The notes beneath the pieces were generated by a model. That model saw only the letters and a program-made list of their open reading frames with translations, ran no database searches and was not told the DNA's origin. From Thermoanaerobaculia bacterium (GTDB taxonomy: Bacteria; Acidobacteriota; Thermoanaerobaculia; Multivoradales; J023), in NCBI GenBank assembly GCA_030431255.1, contig JAUIJL010000017.1, positions 62,001 through 126,000 of the forward strand: 64,000 nt of DNA. The letters run 5' to 3'. The position numbers and the translations under genes are program-made. Positions 414-12,737 of this stretch are shown here, in pieces (position 1 is the first letter of the stretch; each line of letters starts with the position of its first letter).

Positions 414-1292
414 GTGTCTCCTCCCATCAGCTCTGTCACGACCCCCGAAGCACCGTCTACGAATCTTCACCTTGGACCTGCACTACCGCCGTCCCTAGGT
501 CGAGACCTGCGGTATTTCAATGACCGTCCGGTGACCCGGGCGGTGACCCGATTCGGGTTGGCTTTGGCACGGCGGGTCGTCCTTTCGGTCGAGGGAGTGG
601 AGCACATCTCCGGGGATCGGGACCCCTTCGTGGTGGCGGCCAATCACAGCCAGCGTTTGGAAGCGGTTTTGGTGCCGACGGTGCTGGTGGCGCTCCGGAA
701 CGGACGGCAAATCCACTTCATGGCGGATTGGCCGATGCTGATGGTGCCCGGTGTGGGTTTGATCTATCGCTGTGGCGAGGTGATTCCGGTGTTCGGCAAG
801 AGTGCCCGTCCGGCGTTCCTGAACCGCCTCAAACCGATCTATCGGCGCCGATTCCGTGGTTTGGTGGCCGTGGACGACGAAAGCCCAGGCAACGAAAGCC
901 CAGGTCACGAAAGCCCAGGTACCGAGCAGAACGCTTGGCAGGTGGCGGCGGGTTTGTTGCGTCGGGGCAAATCGGTGGGTGTGTTTCCCGAAGGCACCAT
1001 GAATCGAGATCCCAATCGACTCCTTCGCGGACGCACCACGGTCGCTCGCTTGGCGATCGAAAACGGTGTTTCCGTGGTGCCGGTCGGTATCCGCTTCCCG
1101 GCCGCGCAAGATCGGCCGATCCGCGATGTGGATGCGATGACCATTCACATCGGAGAGTCTTTGTCGCCACCGTCGCCCGGAGCTGATCGTTCTCGGATCC
1201 AGGCATTCCATGCCGAGATCATGGGGCGTATTTCGCAGCTGTCGGGCAAGTCTTGGAACCCCGAGAGTCCTCGAAGAACGAGCAGGAGTTGA
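414..1292 (+). CDS. PlsC-like 1-acyl-glycerol-3-phosphate acyltransferase family protein
   Basis: Likely membrane-associated acyltransferase that transfers an acyl chain from acyl-ACP or acyl-CoA to a hydroxyl group. The PlsC block is visible: NHSQRLE near residues 77-83 and FPEGTM near 191-196. The family's catalytic HX4D is HX4E here (H78...E83), so the acidic residue is substituted. Start GTG 414 is chosen because GAAGGA lies six bases upstream; a longer TTG start at 327 has no ribosome site and adds unconserved residues. A 15-bp tandem repeat (878-922) encodes three ESPG-x units near residues 156-170, between the conserved blocks. Four bases separate it from the next gene, a FeeM-like acyltransferase, and an MMPL exporter follows, so it probably acts in a specialised lipid pathway rather than core phospholipid synthesis (inference). 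Confidence 0.85.
   Translation: MSPPISSVTTPEAPSTNLHLGPALPPSLGRDLRYFNDRPVTRAVTRFGLALARRVVLSVEGVEHISGDRDPFVVAANHSQRLEAVLVPTVLVALRNGRQIHFMADWPMLMVPGVGLIYRCGEVIPVFGKSARPAFLNRLKPIYRRRFRGLVAVDDESPGNESPGHESPGTEQNAWQVAAGLLRRGKSVGVFPEGTMNRDPNRLLRGRTTVARLAIENGVSVVPVGIRFPAAQDRPIRDVDAMTIHIGESLSPPSPGADRSRIQAFHAEIMGRISQLSGKSWNPESPRRTSRS
878..922 (+). repeat. 15-bp in-frame tandem repeat, 3 copies
   Basis: Three copies of ACGAAAGCCCAGG plus two variable bases lie head to tail inside the PlsC-like gene. Being 15 bp long, they keep the frame and add ESPG-x units between the conserved blocks of the acyltransferase. Confidence 0.9.
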
Positions 1293-1296
1293 GATC

Positions 1297-1953
1297 ATGG
1301 CCCTTAGAAAAGAGCTGACGGTGCGAAAGTTGGAAGATGAGCCGACCCGGCAGAAGGCTTTGGCGGTGTTGGAAAGTGTGTATCGCACGGAAAAAGGGTG
1401 GGTGGCCGATCCCGACAGCCTGTTGCCGGCGTCTGACCTCAACAATCCGGCGGTGTCTTGGTTTGTGGCCGAGCGCAACGGCGAGGCGATCGGAGTCACC
1501 CGGGTGCTCTACGAGATTCCTTTCGAGCTCTACGGCAACTATGGGTTTCAGCTCGAGAATCCCGGTCTCGACGTCGAGGCCTTCGTGCGCAACAACCGCA
1601 TCGCCGAGGTCGGCAGATTCGCCGTCTTGCCCGAATACCGCAACAAAATCCTGGTCGCCGCCATTCTCATGCGCGCGGCCGCCACGGAAACCGTGGAGCG
1701 GCGATTCACCCACTTCATCACCGACGTCTTCGCCGCGGACCCCAACAGCCCCTACCAATTCCATCGCAGGATCCTGGGTTTCGAGACCGTTGCCACCCAC
1801 GACCACGGTGAGCTGGACATGGAATCGAAACGTATCACTATGTTGCTCGACCTTCAGGCTGCTTATCGGCGCTTGAAGCGGGGCAAGAATTGGATTTTCC
1901 GCTACATCACCCAGGGCTGGAACGAGCAAGTCCTAGAGCAGCTTTCCGCTTAG
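1297..1953 (+). CDS. FeeM-like / GNAT-fold N-acyltransferase
   Basis: A 218-residue protein of the acyl-homoserine-lactone-synthase/GNAT superfamily, most like FeeM N-acyl amino acid synthases, which join an acyl-ACP chain to an amine. Evidence: an alternating beta/alpha pattern, the acetyl-donor-binding type segment EVGRFAVLPEYRNK (about residues 98-111), and a closing segment with FHRRILGFE typical of GNAT folds. ATG 1297 follows GGAG about ten bases upstream and lies four bases after the PlsC-like gene. The pairing with an O-acyltransferase resembles OlsB/OlsA ornithine-lipid synthesis, which suggests an acylated amine or amino-acid lipid product. Substrate cannot be read from sequence; a general GNAT acetyltransferase is the alternative. 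Confidence 0.75.
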   Translation: MALRKELTVRKLEDEPTRQKALAVLESVYRTEKGWVADPDSLLPASDLNNPAVSWFVAERNGEAIGVTRVLYEIPFELYGNYGFQLENPGLDVEAFVRNNRIAEVGRFAVLPEYRNKILVAAILMRAAATETVERRFTHFITDVFAADPNSPYQFHRRILGFETVATHDHGELDMESKRITMLLDLQAAYRRLKRGKNWIFRYITQGWNEQVLEQLSA

Positions 1954-1963
1954 CTCCCAAATC

Positions 1964-4546
1964 ATGAGGCAGCAATGGATGGGTTTGGCCGGCCGTCGAC
2001 CCCTGGCGGTCTTGGCCGTCGCGTTGGTGGTGGCGGTGGGTGCCGGGTTTGCCGCCACGACCTTGCGGTTGGAAACGGATTTATTTTCCTTGGTGCCTCG
2101 AGACAATCCGATTGTTTCGGAATTCCGTCTGACCGTGCAGCGCTTCGGTTCCCTGGATCTGATGCTCTTGGCGGTGGAGCTCCCCAAACCGAGCGACGAC
2201 GGGGATCGCGCGGAGCTTGAACGGGAAGCGGTCTTTGTCTTCGCGGATCTGTTGGCCGCGGAGCTGAGGGCCCTGCCGCAAATCGATTGGCTCGAATACC
2301 GCTTGGAAGACGTCGTGCAAGCGGCCGGCGACCTGGTGTCCTGGGCGCCCATGGTCATGGACGACCAAGGCTTTGAGCGCTTTCTCAGCAGAATCGAGTC
2401 CCGGGAAGGCTTGGATCGGGCCGCGGCCGAGCTGGCGCAAGCCATGCGCTCTCCCGCGGATTTACCCCGCAAGCGGTTGCGATTGATGGACCCCTTGGAC
2501 ATGGTGCCGTCGGCATTGCGCCGTCTCGACATGGCCGAGCAGCGGTTCGACGTGGACACCGGTTATTTGATCGATCCAAAGAAAACCCTTCTTTTGATGG
2601 TCATGGGGCCGTCGGACGCGCCCGCCAACCTACCGTTTTCCAAGCAGCTGTTGGCGGATCTTCGGGCAGCGGGGGAGCGGGCGGAGCAGGCTTGGCGTGA
2701 GAGCGGTCAGGATCTCGAGCTGCCCACGCCGGCCCTCATGCCCGCGGGCGGTCACGTGATCGCCGCTGAGGATGGACGGTTGATCGGGCGAGACTTAGCC
2801 TTCGGCACCTTGCTGACCTTGGTGTCGGTGGTGGTGTTGTTCGCATGGGCGTTCGGCCGGGTGAGAGCCCTCAGCGTGGCCTTTGTGCCGCTGCTGCTCG
2901 GATTGGTGATCACCGCCGGCGCGGCGGCTCTGGTGTTGGGTCGGCTCAACGCAGTGACGGCGGCCTTTGGCGCGTTGCTTCTGGGTCTGGGCATCGACTT
3001 CGTGATCGTGCTCTACGGTCGATATCTCGAGCTCAGGAGCCAGGGAAACAATCACACTCACGCCCTGAGCCTTTGCGCTGAGCATACGGTGCCGAGCATC
3101 CTGCTGGGAGCGGCCACCACGGCGGTCACCTTCTTCGCATTCCTGGTGTCGGACTTCGCCGGCTTGTGGGAGCTGGGGGTTTTGACCGGCGGCGGTATTT
3201 TGATTGTCGCGGTGACGGTGCTCTGGGTGCTGCCGGCGTTTCTGACCCGGGTCGAAGGCCGAGCGGAACGACAGGGTTCAAAGAAACAAGAGCGATTCGA
3301 GCTGCGCGCCTTCGGCGCCCGTCGACTCTTCGAATGGAGCCTGCGGCACCCCCGCTCGGCCTTGGTGATGAATCTTGCGCTGTCCTTAGTGTTGGGCTTC
3401 TTTGCCTTTCAAATCAAATACGACTCGAATGTGCTGTCCATGCGCTCGTCGAAGAACTTCGGCGCCGTGAATCAACAGCGGATCGTCGACGCTTTCGGTC
3501 TGCGCTTCACCCCGTTCATGGTGCGCGTGGACGGCGCCGACGAAGAGGCGGTGTTGGCCAAGGGCTCGGAGATCTACTCGCGGTTGGCACCCTTGGCCGA
3601 TGGTCATGCCTTGGCCCGAGTCGACGGTGTCGTGCACCTGCTGCCGCCTTTCGAGCTGCAACGGGAACGACTGTCGGCCATCCGCGAAGCTTTGGATCGA
3701 CGATCCGCCGACGCCGCCACGATTCGACAAGAGCTCGAGCAAGCCCTCGCCGGCCAAGGTCTGAAACCAGCCGCCTTCTCCCGTGGCCTCGACCAGCTCG
3801 AAGCGGCCCTAGCCTTGGAGCAACCACGCGGGCCGTCGGCTTTGCTGGAGTCCGGCCTCGGACCCTGGGCACAGCGGTATTTCTCATTCCATGAGCACGG
3901 TGTGTCGACGGTGATCTACGGCTATCCCCCGAGCTCTCGCCGAGAGGTGCCGGCGGCCTTGGTCCAGGAGCTGGCGGACGTGGGGGCCGTGGTCACCGGA
4001 CCGGTGATGATTTCCGACGAGCTCAAACGGGTGGTTTGGAACGACGCCATGCTCGCCGGAGTCCTGGGCACTATCGTGGTGTTCTTATGCCTGGTTTGGG
4101 ATCTAAAAAGTTGGATCCGCGGTCTTCTGGCGCTGTTGCCCCTCGGGTTGGGACTGGTGTGGATGTTGGGGCTGATGGCCTGGATCGGCGTGCCGATGAA
4201 CTACCTCAACGTCTTCGTGCTGACCATGATCCTGGGCATCGGCGTGGACTACGGCATCCATCTTTTCCATCGTTTCGGTGAGTCCGGCGGGCTCGAATCC
4301 GCCGCGGGTCTAGCACCCGCCATCGCCGTCGCGGCCTTGACCACCCTCTGCGGATTCGGCTCACTCGTCTTCAGCCACGTGCCCGGATTGCGCTCCATGG
4401 GCTGGGCTGCCATGCTCGGGGTGGTGTCGGTAGCGTGGTTGACCCTCACCCTTTTGCCGGCTTGTTTGCAGTGGTGGGCGCAACGAGGGCGCCTCAAGAC
4501 CCAGGCGACGGCTGCGGCTGAGACGACGGTTCCGGCCGAGGGGTGA
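1964..4546 (+). CDS. MMPL/RND-family lipid exporter (HpnN-like)
   Basis: An 860-residue inner-membrane transporter with the duplicated MMPL architecture. One N-terminal helix (residues 14-34) is followed by a periplasmic domain, a helix bundle at about 275-425, then another single helix near 465, a second periplasmic domain and a bundle at about 695-840. Each bundle has the family's charged helix: GLGIDF in the first half and GIGVDYGIH in the second, matching the proton-relay aspartates of RND/MMPL pumps. Length fits hopanoid-type HpnN exporters (about 860-890). It begins ten bases after the FeeM-like gene, so it most likely exports the lipid made by the two upstream acyltransferases (inference). 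No membrane-fusion or outer-membrane partner is nearby. Confidence 0.9.
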   Translation: MRQQWMGLAGRRPLAVLAVALVVAVGAGFAATTLRLETDLFSLVPRDNPIVSEFRLTVQRFGSLDLMLLAVELPKPSDDGDRAELEREAVFVFADLLAAELRALPQIDWLEYRLEDVVQAAGDLVSWAPMVMDDQGFERFLSRIESREGLDRAAAELAQAMRSPADLPRKRLRLMDPLDMVPSALRRLDMAEQRFDVDTGYLIDPKKTLLLMVMGPSDAPANLPFSKQLLADLRAAGERAEQAWRESGQDLELPTPALMPAGGHVIAAEDGRLIGRDLAFGTLLTLVSVVVLFAWAFGRVRALSVAFVPLLLGLVITAGAAALVLGRLNAVTAAFGALLLGLGIDFVIVLYGRYLELRSQGNNHTHALSLCAEHTVPSILLGAATTAVTFFAFLVSDFAGLWELGVLTGGGILIVAVTVLWVLPAFLTRVEGRAERQGSKKQERFELRAFGARRLFEWSLRHPRSALVMNLALSLVLGFFAFQIKYDSNVLSMRSSKNFGAVNQQRIVDAFGLRFTPFMVRVDGADEEAVLAKGSEIYSRLAPLADGHALARVDGVVHLLPPFELQRERLSAIREALDRRSADAATIRQELEQALAGQGLKPAAFSRGLDQLEAALALEQPRGPSALLESGLGPWAQRYFSFHEHGVSTVIYGYPPSSRREVPAALVQELADVGAVVTGPVMISDELKRVVWNDAMLAGVLGTIVVFLCLVWDLKSWIRGLLALLPLGLGLVWMLGLMAWIGVPMNYLNVFVLTMILGIGVDYGIHLFHRFGESGGLESAAGLAPAIAVAALTTLCGFGSLVFSHVPGLRSMGWAAMLGVVSVAWLTLTLLPACLQWWAQRGRLKTQATAAAETTVPAEG

Positions 4547-4628: not shown

Positions 4629-5390
4629 ATGACCCGACACCTATTCCACAGCTCCCCGAATCGCGAAATTCTGTCCCGAGCGTCCAGTTTTCACGTCATC
4701 CTCACGTTTCTGCTGACCCTGTTTTGCCCCGGAGCTATGCTCGCCCAAGACGCTTCCGAGTCGCGGGTCGACGGTATCGATGTCTCCCATCACAATCACG
4801 GGGTGGATTGGCACGCGGTGAAGGCGGCTGGATTCAGCTTTGCGTACATCAAGGCGACCGAAGGCGTCGACTCCCTCGATCCGAGATTTGCCGAGCATTG
4901 GCAGAATACCGCCGACGCGGAGCTGCCCCGTGGCGCCTATCACTTCTACGTCACCGAAGACGATCCCAACGAGCAGGCGGACTTTTTCCTGAGCACCGTG
5001 CCCGCCGACGATTCGGGGGATCTCATCCCCGTGGTCGACGTGGAGCTCATCGGCCACGGCACGACCGGCGATTGGGTGGACGACCTCAAGGTCTTCCTCA
5101 ATCGGCTCGAGAGCCACTTCGGGCTCAAGCCGATGATCTACACCAGCCCCAATTTTTGGAACGCCGATGTGGACGCGGACTTCAGCGAATACCCCCTCTG
5201 GATTGCCGAATACGAAGTCGACTCACCGACCCTGGCAGAGGGCTGGAGCGCCTGGCATGTGTGGCAGTGGGCTGAGGATCAAACGGTGGACGGGGTCGAA
5301 AAAGGCGTGGACATCAACACGTTGCCGAACGGCTCCACGCTCGACACTCTCCGATTGCCCCGGCCCGAGCCGACGGCCTCAGATCCCTAG
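4629..5390 (+). CDS. secreted GH25 lysozyme (muramidase)
   Basis: A 253-residue glycoside hydrolase family 25 enzyme that cleaves the MurNAc-GlcNAc bond of peptidoglycan. Conserved blocks appear in order: GIDVSHHN near 49-56, FAYIKATEG near 71-79, GAYHFY near 102-107, and the catalytic D-x-E in VVDVEL near 136-141. The N-terminus has a basic region and a hydrophobic core ending in MLAQ before the mature domain, consistent with export. The gene stands alone between the MMPL operon and the convergent acetyl-CoA hydrolase gene. It is full length for the catalytic domain, with no added cell-wall binding repeats. Confidence 0.92.
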   Translation: MTRHLFHSSPNREILSRASSFHVILTFLLTLFCPGAMLAQDASESRVDGIDVSHHNHGVDWHAVKAAGFSFAYIKATEGVDSLDPRFAEHWQNTADAELPRGAYHFYVTEDDPNEQADFFLSTVPADDSGDLIPVVDVELIGHGTTGDWVDDLKVFLNRLESHFGLKPMIYTSPNFWNADVDADFSEYPLWIAEYEVDSPTLAEGWSAWHVWQWAEDQTVDGVEKGVDINTLPNGSTLDTLRLPRPEPTASDP

Positions 5391-5421: not shown

Positions 5422-7311
5422 TCAGGGCTGATCGACGACCTCGTCGAGGGCGAATTCCACCACCGCGACCCCGCGCTCGAAGCGGATGGTTTTGCCGACG
5501 CCCAGGTCTTCCAGCAGGGAGAACATGCGGTTGTTCTCCGCCAACATCTCGGCGGTGAAACCATGGACGCCGCGTTCCCGGGCCACTCGCACTAGCTTCT
5601 TCATCAGGGCCGTGCCGATGCCCTGACCTTGGTCGCGCTCGTTGACCAACACGGTGAATTCGGCTTTGTCGGAGCGGGGATCCCGAAAGTAGCGCACCGC
5701 ACCGACAATCCGTTCCCGGGCTTGGGAGTCGTCCACCGCGCAGATAGCCATGGCGGAGTCATAGTCGATGTGGGCCAGGCCTTGCATCATTTGGCGGGGC
5801 GGAAAATTCGCCGTCGACAGAAAGCGGAAGTAGCTCGACTGGTCGGAGTGGGCGTAGAAGAATTCCCGCAGCAGGTCTTCGTCGGTTTCTTTGAACGGGC
5901 GCATCAACAGCTTCCGGCCCGTGTGGGTTTGAAACCGCTCTTCCAGGTCGATGGGGTAAGCCTGGGCCGTGCTGGTGACGAGGAGTTGCTGATTCTCGAT
6001 GTAACCGCAAGCTTTGGCGTCGAGCAGCAGCTGCTCGCGGAATTTGGGGTGGGCAATGCTGATCAACGCCAGCGCTCGATGTCGGATGCTCTTGCCGTGC
6101 AGGTGAGCGATGCCGTATTCGGTGACCACGTAGTGCACGTCGCCGCGGGTGGTGACGACCCCGGCGCCCTCGGACAGCCGGGTGACGATGCGCGAGACCT
6201 TACCGCCGCAGGCGGTGGACGGCAGGGCGATCACCGGCTTGCCACCCTCGGAACGAGCAGCTCCCCGAATGAAATCCACTTGGCCGCCGATGCCGCTGTA
6301 AAACTTATGACCGATGGAATCCGCGCAGACCTGGCCCGTGAGGTCGACCTCGAGGGCTGAGTTCACCGCCACCATCTTCCGGTTCTGGGCCACCAGGAAT
6401 GGATCGTTGGTGTATTGAGAGGGACGGAACTCAATCAACGGGTTGTCGTCCACAAAGTCGTAAAGGGAGCGGCTGCCCATAACGAAGCTGGTGACGATTT
6501 TCTTGCGATGCAGGGTTTTGCGGCGGTTGTTGACGACCCCTTTTTGAATCAACGCCAGAAGCCCGTCGGAGAACATCTCCGTGTGCACGCCGAGGTCTTC
6601 TTTGTCCTCAAGATTCGCCAAGACGGCATCGGGAATCGCGCCGATCCCCAATTGTAGGGTGGAGCCGTCCTCGATCAACGAAGCCGTGTAACGGCCGATG
6701 GCGGCATTGACAGAGTTGATCTCGGGCCTCGGTAGCTCCGGAAGGGCTTCGTCGAGCAATAGGATTCGATCGATCTCGTCCAGGTGGATCAAGCCGTCGC
6801 CGTGAATCCGGGGCATCTGGGGGTTGATCTGAGCCACCACCAGATTGGCCGCCTCCGTCGCTGACTTGACGATGTCTACCGACACTCCATAGCTACAAAA
6901 ACCGTGGCGATCCGGGGGAGAAAGGTGGACCAAAGCCACGTCCACGGGCACGGCTCCGGACTTGAAAAGCGCCGGGATCTCCGACAAAAAAATCGGTGTG
7001 TAGTCGGCGCGACATTCCTGAACCGCCTTCCGAGCGTTGGCACCGATGAAAAAATTCGAGTGGCGAATGCGGTCGACCAACCGCTCCTCGGTGGTCGGGT
7101 CGAGCCCTAGGGTCAGCAAGTGCATCAGCTCGACGTCGTGGAGCTCGGGAGCGTAGTCCGCCAGGGCCCGCAGTAGCTCCGAAGGCACCGCGGCGCCGGA
7201 GCCCACGAAGACTCGATGTCCGGGTCGAATCACACGGACCGCTTCGTCCGCCGAGCAAATCTTGGCGCGATGTTGCTCGTTCCAATGTGGGTCCAGATTA
7301 TCGATATCCAT
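5422..7311 (-). CDS. acetyl-CoA hydrolase/CoA-transferase fused to GNAT acetyltransferase
   Basis: A 629-residue two-domain protein. Residues 1-450 are an acetyl-CoA hydrolase/4-hydroxybutyrate CoA-transferase-type domain, with the glycine-rich CoA loop GIGGQVDFIRGA and the VTEYGIAHL segment typical of the C-terminal half, where a glutamate forms the acyl-enzyme. Residues from about 455 (RKLLMRPFKETDED) to the end are a GNAT domain with the acetyl-CoA loop DQGQGIGTALMKKL. This domain order is known in other bacteria, where protein acetylation and acyl-CoA metabolism may be linked. ATG 7311 is the first start in frame. A terminator-like hairpin upstream separates it from the next minus-strand gene. 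Confidence 0.9.
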   Translation of the reverse strand: MDIDNLDPHWNEQHRAKICSADEAVRVIRPGHRVFVGSGAAVPSELLRALADYAPELHDVELMHLLTLGLDPTTEERLVDRIRHSNFFIGANARKAVQECRADYTPIFLSEIPALFKSGAVPVDVALVHLSPPDRHGFCSYGVSVDIVKSATEAANLVVAQINPQMPRIHGDGLIHLDEIDRILLLDEALPELPRPEINSVNAAIGRYTASLIEDGSTLQLGIGAIPDAVLANLEDKEDLGVHTEMFSDGLLALIQKGVVNNRRKTLHRKKIVTSFVMGSRSLYDFVDDNPLIEFRPSQYTNDPFLVAQNRKMVAVNSALEVDLTGQVCADSIGHKFYSGIGGQVDFIRGAARSEGGKPVIALPSTACGGKVSRIVTRLSEGAGVVTTRGDVHYVVTEYGIAHLHGKSIRHRALALISIAHPKFREQLLLDAKACGYIENQQLLVTSTAQAYPIDLEERFQTHTGRKLLMRPFKETDEDLLREFFYAHSDQSSYFRFLSTANFPPRQMMQGLAHIDYDSAMAICAVDDSQARERIVGAVRYFRDPRSDKAEFTVLVNERDQGQGIGTALMKKLVRVARERGVHGFTAEMLAENNRMFSLLEDLGVGKTIRFERGVAVVEFALDEVVDQP

Positions 7312-7469: not shown

Positions 7470-10400
7470 CTATTCGATGAGGGTCGACGACCAATGCGAG
7501 GTATCGCCGGTCTCGAAACCGTTCTTGAATATCTTGTCCGATAGCCGCAGATCGTCGATCAACACGGTCATCTCCGCGTCCGGGTCCGACAGGAGCAGGT
7601 CCACGCTACACAAAGCCGACATCGTCCCGGCGGGAGCTTTGAGGGACGCCGGGGCGAGGGCTGTCCAACCGGCCGTGGGCGCGGTGAAGAGCTCGTCCGA
7701 GGTGTCCATTCCCAGGGCCGCGCCGAGACAATTCTTTTGGTCGAAGAGCTCGCAGGTTTTCGAGACGGTGACGTCGGCCTCGAGATCCCGCAGCCAGACC
7801 ATGCCCGACATCTGGAAGCTTCCGGTGCCGGAGGCGGGCACGCATTGTCCGATGGAGAAGTCGGTGGTCGACAGGTTGTTGTACAGGATCGCGGCGCCGG
7901 AAATGCGTGCGGAATCCACGTCAAAGGCGGTGTAGGTGATTTCCGTGTCGGCGGTCGCCACCTCTTCCCACTCGTCCAAATCGCAATCGAAGTGTCCTTC
8001 GGTGAAGAGATTCTCCATGTCGATCCGGAAGTAACGCGCGAAATCGATGCCCGAGGAACCGTCCTCGTCTCCGTCCAGGCCGTTGCCCGCGGCATCGCTC
8101 ACCGCCTCGCAGACGAGCAGGCGATAGGGCGAATCCGCCAGCGGACCGGACAGTTGGAGGGTGGAGGTCAGGGAGGCGTCGTCATAGGTCACCGCGTCGA
8201 TCGTGATCGCCTCATCGTCACCCTGGAGGGCATCGCATTGCTCTGTTTCCAGATCGTGATCTGCCCCGGCCGAAATCAGCTGATAAACCGCCGGGTTGGT
8301 GACGTCGGACGCTTCGATATCCCCGGAAGGATCGTTCATCGCCTCGCTGAACGTCACCAGCAGCTGGTCGATGGCGACCGTGGTTTGCTCGCACTCGTCC
8401 AGGCTGCCGTCGCCCGTATCGCCCAGGGAGCCCACCAGTGTGACGGTCGGCGGTGTGGTTTCGATATCCGTGGTGGCGGTGGCGGTGTTGTTGGTCATGT
8501 CCGTGTCGTCGACCGTCGACGAAGCGGTCATGGTCACTTCCACGGTTCCGGTCGCGTCGGCCGGCAGTGGCACCTCGATGGTGAACGAGGTCGAAGCCAA
8601 GGCCGACAGCGCATGGATGGTGCCCAGGGTGCACGTGGGCACACCGGACGGATCCTCGCCACAGCCTACGGTCGTTGCCGTGCCCACCGCGCCGGTGATC
8701 GCCGTCTCCACGGACACGTTCTCCGCCGGGTCCGGGCCGAGGTTTTCCACCGTCACCGCGTAGAGGGCCGTGCCCATTGGAGCGGCGGTGGCGGCGGCTT
8801 CGCTGAACGTGATCTTTAGATCGGCGAGGCCGACCGATTCGATGGTGGTGGATTCGACGTCCGAGTTGTTGTTGGTGTCCGGGTCGTCGGTCGTGGATTG
8901 GACCGAGACTTGCTGCTGGATGACGCCACTTGCGGTCAGATCCACGGACGCCTCGAAGGTCACCGTCACCGGCAGGCCGGGCTCGAGATTGCCCAGGCTA
9001 CAGCTTGGCCAGCCCGCGGGATCGCCTTGGCATCCGGTCGAGGTCACGCCGGTAAATTCCGGGGTCGGCGCCGCCGAGATCACCACGGATTCCGCCAGAT
9101 TGGGGCCCAAGTTGAGCACGGTGACCCGGTAGATCACCGAATCGCCGGCGGCGACCGGGTCGGCCGCTTCCTCGATGGAAAGCACCAGATCCGCCATGCC
9201 CGGCGTGCCGATGACCGTGGTGGTCTCCAGGCCCCCGTTGTCGGCGGGTGCCAGCTCCGGGTTGGCGGAGTCGACCGAGGCCGCCAGCTCGACGGTGCCG
9301 GAAAGGGTCGACGGCAGCTCACCGGTGAAGGAAACGACCTTGGTGGACCCCGGCTCCACCGTGCCCAAAGTGCAAACCGGTGCTCCGCCGGGATCCTCGC
9401 TGCAACCCGTCGTGGAGGTGTTGAGGAAGTCGTTCGACACCGGCAGGGTGAGAACCGTTCCTTCGGCGGTTCCCGGCCCGCGATTGCCGACGTAGAAGGT
9501 GTAGGTCAGGGGCATGCCGGCGTCCACCGGATCCGCGGAGTCGGTGATGAATAGGAAGAGATCCACATCACCGACCACCTCGACCGTGGTCGCCTCGGTG
9601 CTGCTGTTGTTGTCGGGCAGGCTGTCGTTGGCGTCGGAGGTTACCGACGTGGTGGCGACCAAGGGATCGAGGGTGCCCGGATCCGTCTGCACGGTGATGG
9701 TGAATTGCGCGGACGAGCCGGCGGGGATCTCCCCCAGGCTACAGGATGCCGAGCCGTTCGGATCCTCAGCACAGCCTGCGGTCATGGGCGAGGTGACGCT
9801 CGGTGGCAGAGTGGTGGTGACGACCACGCCCGGAGCGGCATCGGGACCGTTGTTGAGCACGTCGACGGTGTAGGTCAAGGTGTCTCCGGCGGTGATTGGA
9901 TCGACGTCATCGTCGATGAAAATCAGCAGGTCGGCGCTGCCGGCGCCCACGTCGGTGGCCTCGTTCGCTTGGTTGTTGGCGACGTTGGGGTCGTCGGTGT
10001 CGGCGCTGACGGTGGCGGTATTGAGCAGCGTCGCGCCGGCTGCCGCGTTCACGGTGACGGTCACGGTGACGTTCTTGGAAGTGCCGGGCAAGATGTTGCC
10101 GATGTTGCAGGTCGGAATGCCGGCGGGATCCTCATTGCATCCGGAGGTCACCGCACCGCTGACGCCGGCGGGCAACGCCTCGGTGATGACCACGTTCTCC
10201 GCTTCGTCCGGACCGTTGTTCAACACCTGGAGGGTGTAGGTCAGAGTGGCTCCCGGGGCTACCGGATCATCGGAGTCTTGTTTCAGAATCAACAAATCCG
10301 CGGAGCCGCCACCACCACCCCCGACGACGATCACGTCGGTGACCTCGTTGTTGGCGGGATCCGGATCGCCGGTCGAGGCGGCTGCCGTGGCGGTGAAGCT

Positions 10401-12581
10401 CACCGTGCCCGACGCGCCGCCGGGTACCGGACGGGTGAGGGTGTATTGCACCGTGGAGCCGGCGGGCACCGTGCCGAGGGTGCAGGAAGTCGCGCCGTTC
10501 GGGTCTTCGGCACAGCCGGAGGTGGTGCTTCCGGTGCCGGAATCCGGTGCGAAGAGGTGAGACACCACCACGTCCGCGGCGTCGGAGCTTCCCAAATTTT
10601 CCACCGCCACCGTGTAGGTCACGGTTCCGCCGGGTGCCACCGGATTCGGCGTGCTCACGACGGAGATGGTCAGGTCGGTGGAGTCGGCGGTTTCGAAGAT
10701 ATAAGCGGCGCCGGAATCGATAAGAGCCCCGGTCAAGCGGGCGCCGGCGAGGATGGTGCCTCCCGAGATGTCGAGAGCGATCCCGAAGTCGTCTGCCACG
10801 GCGACGCCCGCGGGCAGGAATTTCTCCACCTGGGTCCAGCCGCCGGGCTGGCGGCGATAAAGATAGGCCGAGCCTGCGTTGAAGAGCGGGGAGTCGTCGA
10901 AGTGGGAGCCCACCACCACTTGATCGCCTTCCACCGCCACGGCCCAGCCGAAGAAATCCCCGGGTTCTTGGTCGGATGCGGTCAAACGGGCGGTTTGGCC
11001 CCAGGCGTTGGTGCCGCCTTCGTTACGCTCGTAGACATAGGCTTTGCCGGATTCGAGGCCGGTGCCGTCGGCGAAGTCGGCTCCGACCACGATCACATCG
11101 CCGTCGATCGCCACCGCGTCGCCGTAGCGGTCGTGCAGGGCGCCGTCGTCCGCTTCGAGCAGGGTCACGCCACCCCAGGCATTGGCGCCCCCTTGGTTGC
11201 GCTCAAAGACCCAGGCACGGCCGGTGCCGGTGAAGATCAAATCGGTAAAGGGCGAGCCGACCACCAGGGTGTCGCCGTCGAGCGCCACGTCGTGGCCGAA
11301 GTTGGCCCAGCCCATGGGAGTCGGCGTGGTGATGGTGGTCACGATGCCCCATTGGTCCGGGCCGCCGACGTCCCGTTGGAAAATGGAGACCTCACCGTTT
11401 TCCAGGGTGAGTGAAGGCAACGGCTCGGCAAGCCAGGTGCCGACGGCCACGGTGTCGCCGTCGATGGCCACGGAAAAGCCGAAGTTGTCGAAAATTCCAG
11501 GGGTCGGATTTTCGAGCTCGCGAATTTGCGACCAAGTGCCTCCGCTCCGTTTGAAGATGTAGACCCGGCCGGAGTCCCCCACCAGGCGATCGTTGGGCAA
11601 GATGAGGTCGTCGTCCTTCTGGTGAGCGCCGATGGCGATGTAATCACCGCTGACCGACACGTTGTAGCCGAAGCTGGCGCCCGGCTCGGCATCGCTGGCG
11701 GTGAGCGTTTGCAGCAGACCCCAATTCTCGGCACCGCCCTCGTTGCGCTCAAAGACGTAGACCTTTCCCGCCGCTCCGGCGAAACCGACATCGGCGAGGA
11801 AGGCGCCGACCACCGCGGTGTCGCCGTCGAGGGACACGGACCAGCCCGCGTGCTCGACGGTCGTCGCGAGGGGTTGGAAGAGCTTCTTTACCTCGGTGAC
11901 GAAGCTGGTGAGCATCAAGGGGTAAGCGGCCCCGGTGTCGTCGACCCGCAGGCGAAGGCCGGTCTCGGTGGGCTCGATGCGGGTGGGTAGGACCTGACCG
12001 CCGGCATCGACGGCGGTGAATTCGCCGTAGCTCAGAGACCGACTGCCTCGCCTCAGCTCGACGGCCGATCCGGAATGCTTGAAGGATGCTTCGAGATCAC
12101 CGTCCAGGTCTAGGAGCAGCAGAAGATCGCCGGATCCAGCCTCTGCTCCCCGGCCGAGCTGAGCATAGGGCGGCTGTTGTAGGGTGAATCCGTGGGTGAG
12201 CCGCGATCCGGAGCCCGTCACCCATTGGCGCAGATGACCGTGGTCGAGCTCCGCACGGACGCCGGATGCGCGCAAGGTGCCGTCCGATGCCTCGACCATC
12301 GCGCCGCTGCGACCGAAGGACCTGAGGTGCAAAGCGAGCTGCCAAGGCTCGCCGTCGTCATGGCCCGCAAGGCGCAAACCGCCGTCGCCAAAGGCACCCA
12401 CGGTGCCTTTGGAGAGGGTGGTGAGCCAAGCACTGGAGACGTCGAGGCCGGCTTCCGCGGCCCGAATTCGGGCCTCGAGGGTTTGGGGTAAGTCGGTCTG
12501 GTTGGATTCAGCTGTCGTCGGCCCGGCGAATAACCCGAGGCAGACGAGAAGAAGTAGACAAGTCGAGATCTTGCGAAACAT
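7470..12581 (-). CDS. giant secreted FG-GAP propeller / DUF11 repeat protein with GFE-x-G C-terminus
   Basis: A 1703-residue surface or secreted protein. ATG 12581 is chosen because AAGGAG lies eight bases upstream and a clean signal peptide follows (MFRKISTCLLLLVCLGLFAG). After a linker of about 200 residues come seven FG-GAP-like blades, each with a DGDxxxVG...G.aYvFeR core, enough for a complete seven-bladed propeller (about residues 235-640). Six DUF11 modules follow (about 650-1330), each with a DPVAPG-like entry and the cysteine pair of GCxEDPxGxxxCxLG. A last domain with further cysteines ends in GFETGDTSHWSS. DUF11 chains are usually stalks of cell-surface proteins. The role is probably adhesion or structure; ligand unknown. 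A second protein at 43.1 kb ends in the same motif. Confidence 0.88.
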   Translation of the reverse strand: MFRKISTCLLLLVCLGLFAGPTTAESNQTDLPQTLEARIRAAEAGLDVSSAWLTTLSKGTVGAFGDGGLRLAGHDDGEPWQLALHLRSFGRSGAMVEASDGTLRASGVRAELDHGHLRQWVTGSGSRLTHGFTLQQPPYAQLGRGAEAGSGDLLLLLDLDGDLEASFKHSGSAVELRRGSRSLSYGEFTAVDAGGQVLPTRIEPTETGLRLRVDDTGAAYPLMLTSFVTEVKKLFQPLATTVEHAGWSVSLDGDTAVVGAFLADVGFAGAAGKVYVFERNEGGAENWGLLQTLTASDAEPGASFGYNVSVSGDYIAIGAHQKDDDLILPNDRLVGDSGRVYIFKRSGGTWSQIRELENPTPGIFDNFGFSVAIDGDTVAVGTWLAEPLPSLTLENGEVSIFQRDVGGPDQWGIVTTITTPTPMGWANFGHDVALDGDTLVVGSPFTDLIFTGTGRAWVFERNQGGANAWGGVTLLEADDGALHDRYGDAVAIDGDVIVVGADFADGTGLESGKAYVYERNEGGTNAWGQTARLTASDQEPGDFFGWAVAVEGDQVVVGSHFDDSPLFNAGSAYLYRRQPGGWTQVEKFLPAGVAVADDFGIALDISGGTILAGARLTGALIDSGAAYIFETADSTDLTISVVSTPNPVAPGGTVTYTVAVENLGSSDAADVVVSHLFAPDSGTGSTTSGCAEDPNGATSCTLGTVPAGSTVQYTLTRPVPGGASGTVSFTATAAASTGDPDPANNEVTDVIVVGGGGGGSADLLILKQDSDDPVAPGATLTYTLQVLNNGPDEAENVVITEALPAGVSGAVTSGCNEDPAGIPTCNIGNILPGTSKNVTVTVTVNAAAGATLLNTATVSADTDDPNVANNQANEATDVGAGSADLLIFIDDDVDPITAGDTLTYTVDVLNNGPDAAPGVVVTTTLPPSVTSPMTAGCAEDPNGSASCSLGEIPAGSSAQFTITVQTDPGTLDPLVATTSVTSDANDSLPDNNSSTEATTVEVVGDVDLFLFITDSADPVDAGMPLTYTFYVGNRGPGTAEGTVLTLPVSNDFLNTSTTGCSEDPGGAPVCTLGTVEPGSTKVVSFTGELPSTLSGTVELAASVDSANPELAPADNGGLETTTVIGTPGMADLVLSIEEAADPVAAGDSVIYRVTVLNLGPNLAESVVISAAPTPEFTGVTSTGCQGDPAGWPSCSLGNLEPGLPVTVTFEASVDLTASGVIQQQVSVQSTTDDPDTNNNSDVESTTIESVGLADLKITFSEAAATAAPMGTALYAVTVENLGPDPAENVSVETAITGAVGTATTVGCGEDPSGVPTCTLGTIHALSALASTSFTIEVPLPADATGTVEVTMTASSTVDDTDMTNNTATATTDIETTPPTVTLVGSLGDTGDGSLDECEQTTVAIDQLLVTFSEAMNDPSGDIEASDVTNPAVYQLISAGADHDLETEQCDALQGDDEAITIDAVTYDDASLTSTLQLSGPLADSPYRLLVCEAVSDAAGNGLDGDEDGSSGIDFARYFRIDMENLFTEGHFDCDLDEWEEVATADTEITYTAFDVDSARISGAAILYNNLSTTDFSIGQCVPASGTGSFQMSGMVWLRDLEADVTVSKTCELFDQKNCLGAALGMDTSDELFTAPTAGWTALAPASLKAPAGTMSALCSVDLLLSDPDAEMTVLIDDLRLSDKIFKNGFETGDTSHWSSTLIE

Positions 12582-12737
12582 GGGAACAGCTCCTTGAGAT
12601 GATGATCGAAGCGGGACGGGGGGCCGAGCATGGTCGTGTCGTTCGATCAAGAGCTGTCGCCGGACGGTCAGGTATCTCACCTGACTTGGCAAATCATCCT
12701 ACTTAGTCCATGTTGCTGTATCTCGAAAGCCGTCTCG

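Follow-up and report, generated by a model that had tools for sequence, protein, structure and literature searches.

In the OlsB/OlsA and GlsB/GlsA systems, N-acylation is followed by O-acylation on the 3-hydroxyl (PMC11631085). OlsF carries a different O-acyltransferase domain, and OlsH/OlsI make up a third route (PMC11631085, PMC12493201). FeeM yields single-chain N-acyl amino acids, and according to a 2024 review there is no report of FeeM-type products being acylated further (PMC11631085). Here we analyse a three-gene locus at the start of a 64,000-nucleotide stretch of DNA (the window) from a Thermoanaerobaculia bacterium of the phylum Acidobacteriota (contig JAUIJL010000017.1, positions 62,001 to 126,000, from a 10.2-Mb assembly of 54 contigs). 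The genes encode a PlsC-like acyltransferase, a FeeM-like protein and an MMPL transporter, and had been predicted from the letters alone to form an operon for an acylated-amine lipid. What is conserved is the pair of enzymes, while the MMPL gene is confined to a small Acidobacteriota clade. We propose, with a probability of roughly 55%, that the pair is a phosphorus-free aminolipid pathway in which N-acylation and then O-acylation give a diacyl aminolipid.

The three genes all lie on the + strand, separated by 4 and 10 bases. Gene 1 (414–1292) has a GTG start, with an in-frame TTG upstream at 327 as a possible alternative, and encodes an O-acyltransferase of the PlsC or lysophospholipid acyltransferase (LPLAT) family (PF01553, 6.7e-16). 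Gene 2 (1297–1953) encodes an N-acyltransferase with a GNAT fold (PF21926, 1.1e-7); an AGGAG at 1284–1288, within the 3′ end of the PlsC gene and 8 bases 5′ of the ATG when the sequence is read directly, is its likely ribosome-binding site. Gene 3 (1964–4546) encodes the HpnN-like MMPL transporter (PF03176, 4.2e-30). The arrangement and family signatures given in the original prediction were thus borne out, with PF01553, PF21926 and PF03176 all above their cut-offs.

A neighbourhood search, which the original prediction had suggested, supports the pair as a real functional unit. The FeeM-like alignment was used to scan 84,980 species genomes, and 80 loci were kept. In 75 of them the gene immediately upstream encodes a PlsC homologue of one subfamily. 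Because this order recurs so widely among homologous loci, the adjacency is not a matter of chance. The remaining five comprise two cut by a contig end and three (L040, L095 and L096) that lack an upstream PlsC gene. Pairs were found in Acidobacteriota, Verrucomicrobiota, Pseudomonadota, Chlorobiota and other phyla. At three loci the two proteins are joined in a single open frame, of 553 (L092), 548 (L018) and 485 (L020) residues; Pfam places both domains above threshold in L018 and L020, and PF01553 together with a sub-threshold GNAT match in L092.

Of the 297 genomes analysed for the phylum, 13 carry the FeeM-like gene and 12 the partner type of PlsC, all 12 being FeeM-like carriers. The partner type is sharply set off in a PlsC profile search, scoring at least 177 bits where all other PlsC proteins score at most 78, and in 11 of the 12 carriers the two genes are adjacent or fused. 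Fisher's test of the co-occurrence gives p 1.7e-20 with genomes treated as independent, a value which overstates the association because the genomes are related. The pairwise distances of the two proteins are also correlated in a mirror-tree comparison (r 0.79, where no shuffle exceeded 0.32), which is owed in part to shared species descent.

The FeeM-like protein scores 32.2 bits against PF21926 (FeeM; cut-off 27), and this profile matches all 66 aligned homologues at E 0.01 or better. The OlsB domain PF13444 remains below its cut-off (19.5 vs 22.4 bits) and matches 45 of the 66 weakly; PF00583 also matches the protein, and no named NCBIfam function passed its cut-off in any of the 66 homologues. 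An AlphaFold2 model had a predicted local distance difference test score (pLDDT) of 87.5. When it was compared with the Protein Data Bank (PDB) using Foldseek, the first six matches were all FeeM (2g0b; E 4.2e-10 to 1.9e-8), followed by SbzI (3.6e-8), a structure determined together with a carrier protein. Only this fold comparison was informative, since searches of PDB sequences with the protein and with its profile returned nothing useful.

Residues E32, K33, W35, W55, R69, G106, R107 and F108 are invariant in the FeeM-like alignment, R107 thus occurring in 66 of 66 members and E104 in 63. The EVGR motif, also present in OlsB-type enzymes, is encoded at 1606–1617; the segment EVGRFAVLPEYRN of the window protein corresponds to ELGRSCVLPPYRN of a Rhodoplanes OlsB-like protein, and hhalign matched the FeeM-like and OlsB-like alignments over the EVGR part (E 7.4e-5, probability 62). 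In acetyl-CoA GNATs a glycine loop (R/QxxGxG/A) binds the pyrophosphate of coenzyme A (CoA). None of the 66 members has this loop in register or any glycine at the loop positions, whereas the GNAT domain of a neighbouring CoA-transferase gene has the loop RDQGQG. The Foldseek ranking and the absence of the loop favour a FeeM-like identity for gene 2 over that of an acetyl-CoA GNAT. The protein fits an enzyme of the LuxI/OlsB/FeeM group that would use acyl-acyl carrier protein (acyl-ACP) as donor. A link to exosortase systems was considered and dropped, as TIGR03694 (PEP-CTERM/exosortase acyltransferase) scored 15.5 against a cut-off of 111.95.

The PlsC-like protein scores 58.7 bits against PF01553 (cut-off 23) and 41.1 bits against TIGR00530 (1-acylglycerol-3-phosphate acyltransferase), the latter below the cut-off of 102.95. 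Its AlphaFold2 model (pLDDT 88.7) is closest in the PDB to PlsC (5kym; Foldseek E 4.5e-9, Z 15.3), and then to glycerol-3-phosphate acyltransferases, PatA and LpxM. Motif I, NHSQRLE (642–662), departs from the HX4D of PlsC/OlsA acyltransferases in having glutamate as its last residue. In the alignment of partner proteins NH is present in 58 of 58 members, followed by E in 56 and D in 2. HX4E is therefore a trait of the subfamily and not a local oddity. The FPEGT motif (984–998) has E in all 58, and F102, D105 and W106 (HFMADW in the window) are likewise invariant. LpxL and LpxM have a conserved His/Glu pair at the same places, with E127 critical in Acinetobacter baumannii LpxM; they O-acylate the hydroxyl of 3-hydroxyacyl chains, and LpxM uses acyl-ACP (PMC6286764). 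The suggestion that HX4E might alter the chemistry of the enzyme does not follow, given the fixed glutamate and the use of His/Glu by LpxL/LpxM.

In the PlsC-like gene of the window, a private repeat at about 885–930 codes for SPGNESPGHESPG, a loop of low confidence that no aligned relative has. Within one Acidobacteriota family, HX4E PlsC-type genes occur with no FeeM-like neighbour in three genomes (L152, G061:C135; L153, G099:C53; L154, G233:C483), L152 lying near a pyridoxal phosphate-dependent decarboxylase gene (PF00282) on the opposite strand. The source genome (G000) also holds a second PlsC gene, with HX4D, beside a second HpnN-like MMPL gene (G000:C38; L158 2273–6561, − strand); this MMPL protein is 26% identical to that of the window, and no FeeM-like gene was found there.

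The transporter scores 105.3 bits against PF03176 (cut-off 20.5), and its hydropathy profile has 12 clusters, giving 12 predicted membrane segments. Its two membrane Asp motifs are GLGIDF (2984–3001) and GIGVDY (4235–4252). Both its closest PDB entry by sequence (6wu0, 1.2e-34) and its strongest NCBIfam match are HpnN, although it falls short of the HpnN cut-offs (TIGR03480, 242.2 vs 751.85; NF052374, 143.3 vs 1100). An MMPL gene follows the pair directly only in the window and at five other loci (L021–L025), where it starts tens to several hundred bases after the pair. The proteins of these five are 42–48% identical to the window MMPL over their full length, and the Asp of both motifs is kept in all six. 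As the six loci form one clade in the FeeM-like tree (support 95), the MMPL gene most simply joined the pair once and was then kept. The source genome, with 42 MMPL-profile matches, has a large RND/MMPL set.

Set against the known systems, the pair resembles OlsB/OlsA in combining a LuxI/FeeM-superfamily N-acyltransferase with a PF01553 O-acyltransferase, and the FeeM-like protein and OlsB have in common the motif E-x-G-R-x-x-V-x-P-x-Y-R. It differs in that OlsB-like proteins exceed 100 bits against PF13444, in the HX4E of its O-acyltransferase, and in having the PlsC gene first. FeeM (2g0b) is the best Pfam and best Foldseek match of the FeeM-like protein, at an identity of about 16–19%. GlsB/GlsA, by description, also couple N-acylation to subsequent O-acylation by a PlsC-family enzyme (PMC11631085, PMC12479983). 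LpxL/LpxM have the HX4E pair and the LPLAT fold (LpxM 5kn7 and 5knk, Z about 10), unlike which the window protein belongs to PF01553 and has PlsC, not LpxM, as its best structural match. Of the solved MMPL structures that of HpnN is the closest, but the score of the window MMPL protein is too low for it to be called HpnN. We found no account of the PlsC/FeeM-like pair in the searched literature, whose coverage mostly excluded subscription papers.

In the proposed pathway, an amino acid or amine would first be acylated on its amino group by the FeeM-like enzyme, the fatty acyl group probably being 3-hydroxyacyl supplied by acyl-ACP. Using its His/Glu pair, the PlsC-like enzyme would then attach a second acyl chain by an ester bond, most simply at the 3-hydroxyl of the first chain, and the product would be an acyloxyacyl (diacyl) aminolipid. 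Such a step would parallel the acylation of 3-hydroxyacyl chains by LpxM, whose motif HX4E resembles (PMC6286764). In the Acidobacteriota clade with the linked transporter, the MMPL protein may export the product of the pair, its presumed cargo, from the inner membrane. On our best reading the pathway would be analogous to OlsB/OlsA and GlsB/GlsA, with its N-acyltransferase placed outside OlsB by the PF13444 test. The original prediction is thus borne out in part: gene coupling and enzyme class lend good support to its general idea, and the MMPL gene is linked in six loci only.

Most pairs had no further operon mates, as expected of enzymes with common substrates. No conserved third partner except the MMPL gene of the one clade was found with two home-made gene callers, which yielded some clusters that were antisense artefacts and missed genes in GC-rich loci. 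A Chlorobiaceae locus (L099, 7694–10651) has the order PhoU, pyruvoyl arginine decarboxylase, PlsC and FeeM-like, followed by porin-like and PstS genes. The same porin and Pst genes occur in L100, where the decarboxylase is lacking, and in L086 Pst genes, PhoU, a PAP2 phosphatase and a phosphoesterase lie near the pair. The Pst/PhoU neighbours of these few loci hint at lipid replacement under phosphate limitation, and the decarboxylase of L099, a single locus, points to agmatine as a candidate amine in its lineage. PstB-like matches in 13 loci were rejected as mostly other ABC ATPases, true Pst/PhoU genes being confined to L086, L099 and L100. In L078 (8030–9223) and L081, from Rhizobiales/Hyphomicrobiaceae, GT2 and LAB_N (lipid A biosynthesis N-terminal domain) genes lie directly upstream, pointing to envelope lipid modification.

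The pair is carried by cultured strains of Sulfidibacter, Acanthopleuribacter, Rhodoplanes, Lamprocystis, Imhoffiella and Thiococcus. Sulfidibacter corallicola has all three genes and gave no strong match to OlsB or to OlsF; five unidentified ninhydrin-positive lipids have been described from this species (PMC8841776). Rhodoplanes and Chromatiaceae hold a separate OlsB-like gene besides the pair, which suggests that the product of the pair is something other than ornithine lipid. An OlsB-like gene is also present in the source genome (L112, G000:C19:104772–105083; PF13444, 106 bits), on a contig with no PF01553 match.

Several results weigh against the diacyl aminolipid pathway. Adjacent PlsC genes are missing from three of the 78 loci with usable upstream sequence and, within the phylum, from G061, where the two genes are on different contigs, and G268, where no partner was seen. 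The phosphate-gene context extends to only about 3 of the 80 loci. The lipids of S. corallicola serve as a lead only, because the strain also encodes an OlsH-related GH3 protein (PMC12493201), a possible alternative source of its aminolipids. PF21926 picks up an OlsB-like protein too (L160, 30.1 bits), so that a match to it cannot by itself fix function and was rejected as sole proof of a FeeM activity. Finally, VIA-align ranks FeeM first (Z 16.2) in a tie with ordinary acetyl-CoA GNATs. This tie, the GNAT fold and the PF00583 match would all suit a small-molecule acetyltransferase in a neighbourhood that reflects general lipid or envelope stress. We regard that as very improbable, since the R/QxxGxG/A loop is in register in 0 of 66 members, FeeM leads in Foldseek and the EVGR motif is OlsB-like. 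The FeeM-like assignment thus stands on Foldseek and the missing loop and is left undecided by the VIA-align scores; clustering with acetyl-CoA GNATs, which the original prediction had named as the outcome that would count against it, was not indicated.

Two other readings accept the FeeM-like assignment. The product might be a single-chain N-acyl amino acid, secreted or used in signalling and exported by the MMPL protein, with the PlsC-like enzyme serving phospholipid supply separately. FeeM, the top structural match, does make such compounds (PMC11631085). Yet the partner PlsC subfamily never occurs without a FeeM-like gene in the 297 genomes, three fusions join the two proteins, and the same genome encodes other PF01553 proteins of the PlsC family with the usual HX4D, so that we think this rather improbable. 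Alternatively, the FeeM-like enzyme could N-acylate a hydroxyl-bearing amine, or an existing lipid at its head group, with that hydroxyl, in place of the 3-hydroxyl on the first chain, as the target of the PlsC-like enzyme. The distinctness of the HX4E subfamily and its extra members with no adjoining FeeM partner in three genomes would be in keeping with such a geometry, which is nevertheless unlikely, if less so than a single-chain product, as the characterised OlsBA and GlsBA pairs acylate the 3-hydroxyl (PMC11631085).

The genes behind the amino lipids of many environmental bacteria are unknown, and a conserved, portable two-gene unit in cultured strains makes a link to lipids directly testable. 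If the diacyl aminolipid pathway is correct, the FeeM family, so far associated with single-chain N-acyl amino acids, would be linked to membrane lipids, and an MMPL transporter would gain a candidate cargo. We suggest tentatively, at somewhat less than even odds, that the pair constitutes a further aminolipid route beside OlsBA/GlsBA, OlsF and OlsHI, with a FeeM-type N-acyltransferase and a dedicated HX4E PlsC in several phyla, possibly a decarboxylated amine (agmatine) head group in some lineages, and an MMPL transporter of its own in one Acidobacteriota clade.

No convincing promoter or terminator was found in the surroundings of the operon. The next gene downstream, at 4629 and 82 bases past the MMPL gene, is GH25 lysozyme-like. 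Further along, on the − strand, lie a gene (5422–7311) that joins an acetyl-CoA hydrolase/transferase to a GNAT domain at the C-terminus, the CoA loop of which is normal, and a 1740-residue protein of FG-GAP and DUF11 repeats (7470–12692).

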